From: Nitrosomonadales bacterium | Lineage (GTDB): Bacteria; Pseudomonadota; Gammaproteobacteria; Burkholderiales; Gallionellaceae | Direction of reading: 5' to 3' | NCBI GenBank assembly: GCA_016195965.1 | Contig: JACPYR010000030.1 | Coordinates: forward strand, 1-64,000 | DNA: 64,000 nucleotides | Part shown: one piece after another, positions 28,046-42,387 of the stretch | Layout: every line of letters begins with the position of its first letter | Position numbering within the stretch: position 1 is the first letter of the stretch | Program-made: the position numbers and the translations under genes | The notes under the pieces: generated by a model | The model's input: only the letters and a program-made list of their open reading frames with translations | Databases searched by the model: none | Told to the model about the DNA's origin: nothing

Positions 28046-28979
28046 CGCTGAACACAAACAAACAGGCAAGGAAAAAACCGCACGCAACCCGATCAAGATC
28101 GTGCCGCTGCAGGAACGTTTGCGCAAGCCGGAGTGGATACGCGTGAAGTCCGGCAGCGGACAGGGTTACCACGACGTGAAACGCATGCTGCGCGAGCACA
28201 AGCTGCATACGGTGTGCGAGGAGGCGTCCTGCCCTAACATCGGAGAGTGTTTCGGCAAGGGTACGGCGACCTTCATGATACTTGGCGATGTGTGCACGCG
28301 GCGTTGTCCGTTCTGCGATGTCGCGCACGGCAAGCCGCTACCGCCCGATGTGCAAGAACCCGAGAATCTGGCGCGCTCGATAGGCTTGCTCAAGCTTAAA
28401 TATGTGGTCATCACCAGCGTGGATCGAGATGATTTGCGCGACGGCGGCGCACAACATTTTGCCGACTGCCTGACAGCGATACGCGCCAGTTCGCCCGCGA
28501 CGCGCCTGGAAATATTGGTTCCGGATTTTCGCGGTCGGCTGGAAGAGGCGCTGGACGCGCTCTCTGCCAGCCTGCCCGATGTGCTGAACCACAATCTGGA
28601 GACCGTGCCGCGTCTGTACAAACTGGCGCGCCCCGGTGCAGATTATGCGCACTCGATGAAGCTGCTCAAGGATTTCAAGGCGCGCTTCCCAAATGTGCCG
28701 ACCAAGTCCGGCCTGATGCTGGGCCTAGGCGAGACCGACGCAGAGGTGCTGGAGGTGATGCGCGACCTGCGCGCTCACGATGTGGACATGCTCACCATCG
28801 GCCAATACTTGCAACCATCCGACGGGCACTTGCCGGTGCTGCGCTATGCGCCGCTGGAATCGTTCGCGATGTTCGAGCGGGCTGCCAGAGAGATGGGTTT
28901 CAGCCACGCGGCCTGCGGCCCTATGGTGCGCAGCAGTTATTTCGCCGATGAGCAGGCGCATCAGGCCGGAGTTTTCTGA
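28038..28979 (+). CDS. lipA: Lipoyl synthase LipA
   Basis: A 313-residue radical-SAM enzyme that inserts two sulfurs into octanoyl domains. The auxiliary cluster motif [12 protein letters not shown] and the radical-SAM CTRRCPFC are both intact, and the conserved RSSYFADEQ near the C-terminus carries the third ligand serine (RSSY). It overlaps lipB by 8 bp (ATGAGTAA). The roughly 25-residue N-terminal extension ([11 protein letters not shown]...) is common in the family. Confidence 0.96.
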
Positions 28980-28994
28980 ATCCCTGAAGCGCTC

Positions 28995-29065
28995 TTATGT
29001 CGTAACCACAACTCCTTTTGTGTTGCGGTGGAGACTTACTTGCGCAGCAAGTTATGTCGCAACCA
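28995..29065 (+). repeat. Two direct copies of TTATGTCGYAACCA upstream of rnpB
   Basis: TTATGTCGTAACCA at 28995-29008 and TTATGTCGCAACCA at 29052-29065, 57 bp apart, in the gap between lipA and rnpB. A third copy, exact to the first and in inverse orientation, lies at 41236-41249 in the murG leader. Confidence 0.55.
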
Positions 29066-29112
29066 AAGTGCGGGTTCCCGGACGCTCGTTAAGTTCCCGT
29101 GATAGACTCCAC

Positions 29113-38560: not shown

Positions 38561-39946
38561 TTGAAAGATTGGTCAGACAAACAAGTGCTGGTGCTCGGTC
38601 TGGGAGAGACCGGGCTCTCCCTTGTGCGCTGGTTAAGTGCGCAGGGCGCGCGCGTGCGCGTCGCAGACAGCCGCTACAATCCGCCGGGCCTGGATATGCT
38701 GCACAGCAGCTTTCCGGATGCGGATATCCGTTGCGGCGCATTCGATGACAGTTTGCTGGAGGGTATAACAAGTATCGCCATCAGTCCGGGCGTGCCGCTG
38801 GCCGACCCATTTGTACAGCGCGCGATTGCGCACGGAATTCCTGTCGAAGGCGACATCGAATTGTTCGCGCAACAACTCGGGAAAAGGGATGCGGCACAGG
38901 GGAGTCGCGTGATCGCGATCACGGGTTCCAACGGCAAGACGACGGTCACCAGCATGATCGCGCATCTGTGCCGGGCAGCGGGCAAGGATGCGGTGGCGGC
39001 GGGCAACATTTCCCCGGCGGTGCTAGATGTGGTGCTGGAGCGCGGCGCTCGTCAGCCTGGTGTGTGGGTATTGGAGTTGTCCAGCTTTCAGCTTGAAACC
39101 ACTTCGGGTTTGAGGGCGGATGCCGCAACAGTGCTGAACATCAGCGAAGACCACCTCGATCGATATGCCGATATGGACGCATACGCTGCCGCCAAGGCGC
39201 GGATTTTGGTGGGTTGCGGCACGCAGGTGCTGAATCGGGATGATGTGCGCAGCATGGGCGCGGCAAGTGCTGGTCGCCCGATCGTCACGTTCGGTTTGAA
39301 TAGGCCGGCAAATCCAGGTGATTTCGGAATAGAGCGGGATAATGGTGAAACCTGGCTGGTGCAAGGTTCGCAACGTTTGCTTAAGGCCGGCGAGTTGCAG
39401 GTGGCGGGGCTGCACAACGTGGCGAATGCATTGGCTACACTGGCATTGTGCCGTGCGATAGATATACCCATGCCGGCCTTGCTAGTTGCGTTGCGCACTT
39501 TCAGGGGGTTGCCGCATCGCGTGGAGCGTGTGGCAGAAATTGCCGGCGTGACATATTACGATGACTCCAAGGGCACCAACGTCGGCGCGACCATCGCAGC
39601 GTTGCAGGGGTTGGGGCGCAAGGCGGTGCTGATAGCCGGCGGCGAGGGCAAAGGGCAGGACTTTGCTCCGCTTAATCCCGTGGTGGCGCAACATGCGCGC
39701 GCGGTAGTATTGATCGGACGCGATGCGCCGCTGATTTTGCACGCGTTACAGGGATGCGGTGTAGCGGTGACGCGAGCCCGGGACATGAGGGAGGCTGTGC
39801 AGCAGGCATCCGGGTTGGCGCAAAGCGGCGATGCGGTATTGTTGTCGCCTGCCTGCGCCAGTTTCGATATGTTCCGTAACTATGAACATCGCGCGGAAGT
39901 GTATGTGCAAGCGGTGCAGCAGCTGGAGGGCGCATGGCATCATTAG
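38561..39946 (+). CDS. murD: UDP-MurNAc-L-Ala:D-Glu ligase MurD
   Basis: A 461-residue Mur ligase starting with TTG at 38561. Its ribosome-binding site AGGAG at 38551-38555 is well placed, and the N-terminus [19 protein letters not shown] is the usual MurD Rossmann fold, so the TTG start is firm. ATP loop [14 protein letters not shown] near 112-125; [11 protein letters not shown] near 329-339. The 3' end overlaps ftsW by 13 bp. Confidence 0.95.
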
Positions 39947-41097
39947 TCAAGACACGCGCCCGCCCGCCGCAAGCCCAGTTCGACGAGTTGCTGATTTGGG
40001 TGTTGATCGGCTTGCTCGCGCTCGGTCTGGTGATGGTGTACTCGGCCTCGATCGCGACTGCCGAAGCCAATAAATTTACCGCCTACCAAGCCACTTACTA
40101 CTTGGCGAGGCACGGGGTGTTTATCGTCGTGGGGCTGATAGCCGGGCTGTTCGCCTTTCAAATGCCGGTGCAGACGTGGCAGAACTACGCGCCTTATTTG
40201 TTTCTGGCCGGAGCGGCGCTGCTGGTGTTGGTGCTGATCCCCCACATCGGACGAGAAGTGAATGGCAGTCGCCGCTGGCTATCCTTGTTTGTCATCAATT
40301 TGCAGCCTTCCGAATTGATGAAGCTGTTCGCCGTGCTGTATGCCGCCGATTACACCGTGCGCAAGGGTAAGGTCGGACACTTGTTCAGGAAGGCGTTCGT
40401 GCCGATGTTGGTGGTGATGGTGCTGGTCGGCGGTTTGTTGTTGCAGGAACCTGACATGGGTGCTTTTGTGGTGATCCTGTCGATCGCGTTCTGCACCTTG
40501 TGGCTGGGCGGCTTCAATCTCAAAGTATTCATTGCTCTGCTGGTGGCGTTGCCGCTGGCGTTTGCCGCGCTGATTTTTTCCTCCCCCTACCGGATGCAGC
40601 GCGTCATTGGATTTATGGACCCCTGGTCTGACCCGTACGGCAAGGGCTATCAATTGAGCCATGCGCTGATCGCTTTCGGGCGCGGCGAATGGCTGGGTGT
40701 GGGTCTGGGTGGCAGCGTGGAAAAGTTGTTCTACTTGCCGGAAGCTCATACCGACTTCCTGATGGCGGTGATAGCGGAAGAGTTGGGGCTGGTCGGCGTG
40801 GCGGCTGTCATTGCGCTATTTGCGCTGCTGGTGGTGCGCGCATTTCAGATCGGTCGCCATGCTGCGTTTCTTGAGCGCAACTACTCCGCGCTGGTCGCGC
40901 AGGGGATAGGCGTGTGGATAGGCGCGCAGGCAATGATAAATATCGGCGTGAACATGGGGGTGCTGCCGACCAAAGGTTTGACCCTGCCGTTCCTGAGCTT
41001 TGGTGGAAGTGGCATCGTCGTAAATTGCGTGGCCGCCGCCGTGCTGCTGCGGGTTGACTTCGAGAATCGACGGATTGCGCGGGGACTACCTGTATGA
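39934..41097 (+). CDS. ftsW: Septal peptidoglycan glycosyltransferase FtsW
   Basis: A 387-residue SEDS-family membrane protein with about ten helices. Conserved [13 protein letters not shown] near 107-119 and the C-terminal [16 protein letters not shown] near 347-362 contain the SEDS signatures. It polymerises glycan strands with FtsI. No murG follows directly: a repeat hairpin and a leader ORF intervene. Confidence 0.95.
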
Positions 41098-41115: not shown

Positions 41116-41166
41116 GCCACAGAGAACACGGAGAACAACCAACACTCTCTCTGTGTTCTATGTGGC
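41116..41166. repeat. CACAGAG/CTCTGTG inverted repeat, copy B, in the dcw cluster
   Basis: GCCACAGAGAACACGGAGA and the right arm CTCTCTGTGTTCTATGTGGC form an imperfect long stem with a short loop between ftsW and the murG leader ORF. It belongs to the same family as 29608-29723 and 56434-56518. Confidence 0.75.
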
Positions 41167-41185: not shown

Positions 41186-41311
41186 ATGAGCCGCTCAATA
41201 CTGATCATGGCAGGCGGAACCGGCGGCCATATTTTTGGTTACGACATAACGCGTGCTGTGCACGTATTAGTCTGCGCCGGAAATATGACCGGTTTGGGAG
41301 GTGTTCAGTGA
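41186..41311 (+). CDS. Leader ORF duplicating the murG N-terminus
   Basis: A 41-codon ORF, too short for the track. It starts [17 protein letters not shown], equal to MurG residues 1-17 except Ser2 for Asn2. It then diverges (GYDITRAVHVLVC...) and stops at TGA 41309-41311. The murG GTG at 41308 overlaps that stop (GTGA), so murG translation could be coupled to the leader. Over 51 nt the two copies differ at 11 positions, 9 of them synonymous. The peptide holds only the first glycine-rich loop of MurG and cannot be an enzyme. It may be a relic of recombination, a coupling leader, or an assembly artefact. Confidence 0.65.
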   Translation: MSRSILIMAGGTGGHIFGYDITRAVHVLVCAGNMTGLGGVQ

Positions 41312-42387
41312 ACCGCTCCATTTTAATTATGGCTGGAGGTACAGGCGGCCATATTTTTCCGGCGCTTGCGGTGGCGGACATTTTGCGCGCGCAGGGTTGG
41401 AAGGTGACCTGGTTGGGTGCGCCGCGAAGCATGGAAGCCGATCTGGTTCCGCGTCATGGATATGAAATGGCGTGGGTGAATTTTTCCGGGGTGCGTGGCA
41501 AGGGTTTGCTGAGAATGTTGCGGCTACCGTTCAATCTGCTGGAGGCAATGTGGCAAAGCGCGTCTGCGATATTGCGCCACCGCCCCGACGTGGTGCTGGG
41601 CATGGGCGGCTACATCACATTCCCGGGCGGCATGATGGCGGCATTGCTGCGTCGTCCGCTGATAATCCATGAGCAAAATTCCATTGCCGGATTGAGCAAT
41701 AAAGTATTGGCGCACCTCGCGAAAAAAGTGCTGGGCGGGTTCCCCGATGTGCTGGCGAATTCTCTGTGGTGTGGCAATCCGGTGCGCAGCGATATTGCCG
41801 CGTTGCCCGAGCCCCAGCGACGCTATGACGCACGCGATGGAAAATTGAATGTGCTGGTGGTGGGCGGCAGTCTGGGCGCCAAGGCGCTCAACGAAGTACT
41901 GCCGCAAGCGCTTGCGCTGTTGCCGCAGGATGTGCGCCCCAAGGTGTTGCATCAAACCGGCAAGCAAAATTTTGAGGCCGTGCAGCGGGCGTATCAACAA
42001 GCCGGCGTGCAGGCGGATATCAAGCCGTTTGTGGATGAAATGGCCAGGCATTATGCCGATGCCGACCTGGTGATTTGTCGCGCGGGAGCACTGACGATAG
42101 CGGAACTCGCCGCGGCGGGGGTGGCGAGCATATTGATTCCGTTCCCGTTCGCGGTTGACGATCATCAGACCCGCAATGCGGAATTCCTGAGCAAGCGCGG
42201 CGCGGCGGTGCTGCTGCCGCAGAACGAACTCAGCGCGGAAAAACTGGCGCGGCTGTTAAGCGATCTGATGGAAGGCGGCTCGGGGCGCGAAAAATTATTG
42301 GCCATGGCGCGCAAGGCGCGCGACCAGGCGAAGGCAGATGCTGCGCAAAATGTCGCGCAAGTGTGTATGGAGTTGGCGGAAGCATGA
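41308..42387 (+). CDS. murG: MurG N-acetylglucosaminyltransferase (lipid II synthesis)
   Basis: A 359-residue peripheral membrane GT-B enzyme that adds GlcNAc to lipid [17 protein letters not shown] near 8-23 is the acceptor-side glycine loop, [16 protein letters not shown] near 97-112 and [15 protein letters not shown] near 259-273 are conserved. It starts at GTG 41308 after GGGAGGTG; the track ORF beginning at 41173 covers leader codons in another sense and is not the protein start. Full-length and intact. Confidence 0.94.

Follow-up and report, generated by a model that had tools for sequence, protein, structure and literature searches.

In the 64,000-nt stretch of Nitrosomonadales DNA analysed here (the window; contig JACPYR010000030.1 of assembly GCA_016195965.1), a short open reading frame lies between ftsW and murG, and its first 17 codons repeat those of murG. 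The features considered below, each with the evidence that defines it, are:

29023-29064, minus strand: a further copy of the hairpin element, between lipA and a probable RNase P RNA gene (model R2)
39934-41097, plus strand: ftsW, 387 aa (ORF list)
41116-41166, no strand: small palindromic repeat GCCACAGAGAACACGGAG ... CTCTGTGTTCTATGTGGC, distinct from the cassette, between ftsW and the leader (sequence)
41186-41311, plus strand: leader ORF, from the displaced murG start through the hairpin to a stop in the functional murG start (sequence, ORF list)
41186-41236, plus strand: displaced original murG 5' end, codons 1-17, with a T5 tract at its end, 41232-41236 (uninserted relatives)
41237-41282, plus strand: hairpin core of the cassette in orientation A, GGTTACGACATAACGCGTGCTGTGCACGTATTAGTCTGCGCCGGAA (model R2, covariation)
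41279-41292, plus strand: X-prime, GGAAATATGACCGG, near reverse complement of the end of the functional copy, GGCCATATTTTT (complementarity, single-stranded DNA fold)
41293-41307, plus strand: spacer with a Shine-Dalgarno-like GGGAGG at 41296-41301 (sequence)
41308-41358, plus strand: new, recoded murG 5' end, codons 1-17, with the same T5 tract at its end (relatives)
41308-42387, plus strand: murG (ORF list)

The leader runs from an ATG at 41186-41188 to a TGA at 41309-41311 (41 codons and the stop), and murG from a GTG at 41308-41310 to position 42387, so that stop and start overlap as GTGA (41308-41311). Over 51 nt, leader positions 41186-41236 and murG positions 41308-41358 differ at 11: the A/G of the start codon, an AGC/AAC exchange of Ser for Asn, and nine nucleotides in eight synonymous codons. 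The local alignment of the two scores 34.5, far above chance: the best of 200 shuffles reached 14.0. The repetition of MurG codons 1-17, its mostly synonymous character and the GTGA coupling had been described in a first-pass annotation made from the letters alone, and both the sequence and the ORF list bear them out. The whole insert at murG measures 122 nt.

Relatives that lack the insert identify the older of the two murG starts. In uninserted loci (L015, L017, L026, L030, L031) and in genomes G103, G111, G047 and G052, the ftsW TGA overlaps the murG ATG as ATGA, the ancestral arrangement, and the displaced copy is the one contiguous with its neighbour in that overlap (L004, L010, L011; for ftsW, L021). 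The leader copy in the window agrees with the nearest uninserted relatives at 45/48 nt (G111) and 43/48 nt (G103), like the rest of murG, whereas the functional copy agrees with them at 35/48 nt and in 3-4 of 16 codons, an outlier within its own gene; measured from G111, the displaced copy carries 3 differences in 48 nt and the functional copy 13. Relatives and ancestral contiguity agree, and the functional murG start is therefore the newcomer, already different on arrival, while sequence comparison identifies the leader copy as the host's original start. The earlier proposal that the murG 5' end was partly replaced and its start displaced is thereby upheld. A search for the donor of the recoded end found none, the best match reaching 40/48. 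Most species of the genus have no such element at murG.

The leader together with its tail was first sought by DNA search of 100 relatives, and the tail was then searched alone. A search of the same genus, which the first-pass annotation had suggested, found leader and tail between ftsW and murG in four further genomes (G022, G033, G036, G054), and in one genome from another family of the order (G096); the tail alone also matched far from murG. It belongs to a dispersed imperfect hairpin of about 37-64 nt that lies downstream of a T4-5 tract near the 5' or 3' ends of conserved genes, with an orientation A consensus of TTTT followed by GGYTNCGACRTAAC, a variable stem-loop and RTTAGYCTNCRCCGAAA. 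Alignment of 24 copies gives a single hairpin that contains a bulged base and fixed internal loops, with 95% of cells paired; eight pairs have changed on both sides, in 39 double-change cells, and none of 500 shuffles reached as high a value. The covariance model used for copy searches, R2, matches the window core with an E-value of 4.9e-10 and 59.3 bits when its own genome is searched. R2 finds about 21 good copies in that genome and strong copies in 26 of 61 relatives. At the second copy in the window, gene-end duplication was sought and none detected. The interval it occupies (28979-29107), between lipA and what we take to be the RNase P RNA gene, holds one full element copy and an apparent half copy.

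A scan covered 84,980 species' genomes, and the taxa named here are those among the matches listed: Gallionella, Ferrigenium, Sideroxydans, Methylotenera, Rubrivivax, Rhodoferax, Sulfuritalea, Thiobacillus and others, mostly Betaproteobacteria, with a few metagenome-assembled genomes (MAGs) labelled Gammaproteobacteria. Four copies (L275, L281, L283, L290) are in MAGs titled Bordetella parapertussis, a label that is probably wrong for environmental bins. Isolates with the element include Propionivibrio dicarboxylicus DSM 5885 (L259), Polaromonas sp. AER18D-145 (L338) and Methylophilales LSUCC0135. Overall at least 270 distinct copies were collected, and the reversed-sequence control gave almost none. 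A stricter exact pattern had no match in six genomes, seven element loci searched against Rfam 15 gave nothing near gathering scores, and viral contigs and phage and plasmid collections contained no match. That the window is a MAG contig, and that the G054 contig breaks at this repeat, would suit an assembly or binning artefact, the alternative named in the first-pass annotation. Leader and tail recur independently in many assemblies, in other species and in another family, and the element is accompanied by duplicated gene ends in the isolates P. dicarboxylicus DSM 5885 and Polaromonas sp. AER18D-145; we give an artefact a negligible probability.

Duplicated gene ends are not confined to murG. 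Among known copies, which were selected by their match to the element, so that the proportions are not genome-wide, 82 of 264 testable ones have a significant duplication within 2 nt of the T-tract junction, as compared with 6 of 264 control T4 sites; the other 182 have no detectable duplication. Duplication lengths range from roughly 17 to 90 nt, and in most cases the copies have diverged. At 28 events with an unambiguous reading frame, 136 differing codons are synonymous and 46 nonsynonymous (random expectation, 31 and 146), and 3' ends, at which translation does not reach the displaced copy, show the synonymous excess too. Read in orientation A, 5' and 3' insertions always have the same order: displaced end with TTTT, hairpin, X-prime, spacer, functional end with TTTT, gene body. 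Recurrent targets, named from sequence motifs rather than by family search, are murG, ftsW, ksgA, pstB, mraY, a 3-hydroxyacyl-CoA dehydrogenase-like gene, dnaB, aminotransferases, galE, ruvC, lplT and pilD, together with a bacterioferritin-like gene (ending KNAWMLRSLLEE and stop) and an acs-like gene (ending NPAILEQLKEVIK and stop); at ftsW, pstB, mraY, acs and others the element is at the 3' end. In the window's genome alone, flanks are repeated at the 5' ends of murG, ksgA and a lysine-decarboxylase-like gene, at three nested pstB 3' ends and at a tRNA-Ser gene.

The first-pass annotation had attributed the murG repeat to recombination between diverged murG alleles, or to partial replacement. 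The second part stands; as a sole cause, and as an event specific to murG, allele recombination does not, given a dispersed hairpin at many gene ends, 3' ends included. This explanation holds that homologous recombination with another allele or foreign DNA left a partial tandem duplication in which the hairpin is incidental. The functional murG copy is indeed as diverged as the allele of another species, one locus (L004) resembles a crossover near codon 3, and the two ftsW copies of G104 are identical; resident copies therefore do exchange. Yet in 82 cases, at many unrelated genes, only 0-2 nt separate the duplicated end from the hairpin, which lies exactly at the junction; ordinary recombination would account neither for a conserved hairpin there nor for the complementary X-prime. 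As the sole cause it is largely refuted, and we consider it unlikely.

A second explanation, to which we assign a similarly low probability, is a long exact target-site duplication made from the host, with slow divergence of both copies afterwards. Some pairs are nearly identical, as such a process would leave them: L157 differs at 3 of 82 positions, L339 at 0 of 39 and L004 at 1 of 44, and L318, L273 and L278 are similar. A copy that has been cut off, however, should not evolve more slowly than the functional one, and in the window it is the displaced copy that has hardly changed and the functional copy that carries the difference; the synonymous excess at 3' ends with an untranslated displaced copy speaks against slow divergence as well. 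For the window, the uninserted relatives led us to reject it. Import explains the near-identical duplications less well than an origin from the host or homologous exchange at a later time, and L157, L339 and L004 thus indicate that copies are also exchanged or newly made from the host.

Rare codons were considered as a general mark of the recoded ends and were discarded, since the codons of functional ends are not consistently rarer than those of displaced ends (p 0.30). Functional ends do use rarer codons than gene interiors (p 0.0002), and the natural pstB ends of uninserted relatives also use AGA/AGG. On contig C64 of the window's genome (L094, about 1425-1542), the three nested pstB ends all encode YITGRFG and a stop and differ at nearly every synonymous site, with a perfect or near-perfect inverted copy behind each. 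At two loci with double insertions (L138, 1376-1550; L162, 1404-1573), bacterioferritin-like ends alternate two codon spellings (A-B-A or B-A-B), and the outermost and functional ends are nearly identical.

Directly 3' of the hairpin lies X-prime, whose 6-18 nt are the complement of the functional copy's end, GAAA-X-prime pairing with X-TTTT. X-prime fits the functional copy better at 42 events and the displaced copy better at seven, with 33 ties. Four genes show covariation of X-prime with the functional copy across species: murG and acs (permutation p 0.0002 for both), ftsW (p 0.017) and the bacterioferritin-like gene (p 0.03); at ksgA and the 3-hydroxyacyl-CoA dehydrogenase-like gene the fit of X-prime to the functional copy was no better. 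Folding as single-stranded DNA agrees with a second hairpin, best at pstB (z -7.6). Because X-prime tracks the functional copy, the inserted unit looks self-consistent, with a hairpin core followed by a second hairpin that ends in TTTT.

Where the cassette lies at a 5' end, the hairpin usually does not interrupt the displaced ORF, which runs on to a stop at the functional start. The coupling noted at the window's murG is, as far as sequence can tell, recurrent: all nine murG cassettes have a leader whose stop overlaps the functional start, by 4 or 8 nt, and so do several other genes. The 4-nt overlap occurs at the window's murG, galE, lplT, ksgA (three species), ruvC (L154) and a Gfo/Idh-like gene; in the remaining eight murG cassettes the overlap is 8 nt and lies in a conserved ATGNCTARG; and at the lysine-decarboxylase-like gene the leader ends two bases before the functional start. 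An exact 4-nt overlap is present in the leader frame in 9 of 28 cases and in each other frame in none of 28, a comparison in which the chance level is not negligible, since every ATGA start contains TGA and events at one gene are not independent. There is no leader coupling at an NDUFA9-like gene (L130), pilD (L188, L192) or a cobW-like gene (L294). The spacer region, with its layout and 24-25 nt length, is common to all nine murG cassettes, and their core lengths of 37, 46, 58 and 64 nt differ by multiples of three. The nine murG cases, with core lengths all equal modulo 3, suggest selection to keep the leader open and terminating, and coupling may therefore be regarded as a recurrent design. 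The leader would be translated and its ribosomes passed to murG by termination-reinitiation, and it may tune the amount of MurG, as the first-pass annotation proposed; the new murG start also has a GGGAGG of its own.

The nine retained overlaps and the steps of three in core length would suit a dedicated regulatory leader, an attenuator or coupled uORF that controls MurG. The same element, however, is found at ksgA, lplT, galE and ruvC, and it also occupies 3' ends, among them those of ftsW, pstB, mraY and acs; at murG it is absent from most species of the genus. A leader is impossible at a 3' end, and the places in which the element is found speak against a device built for murG. We therefore rejected a dedicated murG leader, which is very unlikely for an element so dispersed.

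We consider it likely that the insert is a miniature, non-autonomous mobile cassette that cuts off the end of a gene and supplies a recoded one, here inserted at the T5 tract of murG codon 17. The anatomy of the cassette, its membership of the hairpin family, the direction of replacement at the window's murG and the recurrence at other genes are shown by the sequences compared. Its parts are the 46-nt hairpin core, X-prime, itself complementary to the 3' end of the cassette that contains it, a spacer that carries a ribosome-binding site, and recoded murG codons 1-17, core and gene end presumably moving as a single unit. Insertion would sever the old murG 5' end, now the leader, and join the carried 5' end to the gene body; as the carried end restores murG, MurG is unchanged except for Ser2Asn. 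The substrate may be the folded single-stranded cassette with X-prime paired to the X-TTTT end, integrated 3' of a T-tract by a recombinase or transposase acting in trans, and other species with a cassette already at the same gene are the probable source of the recoded ends. Since slippage removes perfect direct repeats that flank a hairpin, diverged copies would be favoured and would last longest; the cassette would survive near the ends of conserved genes because it restores them. A more specific version, possible but rather doubtful, is a natural homing cassette with recoded rescue, in which X-prime guides the cassette by base pairing to one gene end and the cassette spreads gene by gene between species. 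On that same tentative footing, it would survive in essential genes through its synonymously recoded end, by a mechanism unlike any described REP, MITE or integrase island.

Searches for the enzyme concentrated on two families. Thirty loci with a Y1 transposase (PF01797), examined with flanks of up to 1.5 kb, held no convincing element, and no Y1 gene was found in the element-bearing G022 and G036. The integron integrase (TIGR02249) had no match over cut-off in the element-rich G009 and G033 or in the window's genome, and had one in the element-poor G001, G002, G007, G008, G015 and G032; presence of the integrase therefore does not follow that of the element. Neither excision nor transposition of a cassette was seen.

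Integrative elements and genomic islands are known to split a tRNA or protein gene and regenerate the target from their own attP copy (Islander, PMC4383910; the 5' end of dusA, PMC4482086). The cassette resembles them in that the target end is severed, an element-borne copy regenerates the gene and a displaced fragment marks the far end of the insertion. It differs in being only about 75-170 nt long, in coding for no integrase, and in occupying many different genes, each time with a gene-specific recoded end and a complementary stretch. As at islands in tRNA genes, the tRNA-Ser gene at one locus (L103, about 1501-1650) is split by the element and its displaced fragment is interrupted further.

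With REP/RAYT sequences of the GTAG and CGTC families (PMC3733652) the element shares short, dispersed, imperfect and sometimes tandem palindromes, but it has a diverged gene-end copy attached and no tyrosine transposase beside its copies. By eye, the consensus GGYTNCGACRTAAC...RTTAGYCTNCRCCGAAA has no GTAG/CGTC tag at the hairpin foot. Identification as RAYT/REP by gene adjacency was rejected for want of a Y1 gene beside the copies; for CGTC REPs no dedicated transposase is reported either (PMC3733652). Like MITEs (PMC10969869) and Rickettsia palindromic elements (RPEs), it is miniature, non-autonomous, palindromic and found in or beside genes. MITEs make a short, exact target-site duplication, whereas the duplication here is long and its copies have diverged. 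As to the terminal inverted repeats that MITEs share with a parent transposon, the two halves of the hairpin are imperfectly paired, and no parent transposon was seen in the element loci examined. RPEs are translated within the host protein, whereas the cassette leaves the protein intact by means of a second gene end: MurG is whole and the element lies within the leader ORF only. A possible exception is a copy (L093, about 1501-1545) apparently in frame inside an acyl-CoA-ligase-like ORF, without gene-end duplication.

The conserved imperfect hairpin with fixed mismatches is shared with IS200/IS605 and integron attC sites and suggests single-strand recognition. The left junction, with its T-tract, is reminiscent of an IS200/IS605 target, but no Y1 transposase was found near the cassette copies. 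Integrons differ in that the element consensus lacks attC boxes (by eye, no RYYYAAC and GTTRRRY pair at the stem base) and in that the presence of their integrase does not track the element. We found no description of such gene-end cassettes in the open-licence literature, including papers on REPs and MITEs (PMC3733652, PMC10969869). We file the element among miniature mobile elements; its replacement of gene ends is, to our knowledge, apparently undescribed.

If the cassette reading is true, very small mobile DNA rewrites the ends of essential genes (murG, ftsW, mraY, ksgA, pstB, dnaB and others) across Betaproteobacteria while leaving the proteins unchanged. It would account for puzzling partial duplications of gene ends, synonymous recoding and leader ORFs, offer a natural parallel to recoded-rescue insertions and a repeated evolutionary route to a coupled leader ORF before a gene, and make the search for a new single-stranded DNA or hairpin recombination enzyme tractable.

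Other insertions were observed at the same junction. The palindromic repeat at 41116-41166, of the CCACAGAG...CTCTGTGG type, has several similar copies in its own genome and in relatives. The ftsW-murG junction is an insertion hotspot in the genus, where at least four unrelated types of palindromic element break the ancestral ATGA overlap (L003, L006, L008, L009, L012, L014, L016, L020). Upstream of murG in L025, L028 and L003, a palindromic insert, in frame as STRKEYAGGYPEASPP, apparently extends the MurG N-terminus and removes the original start codon.
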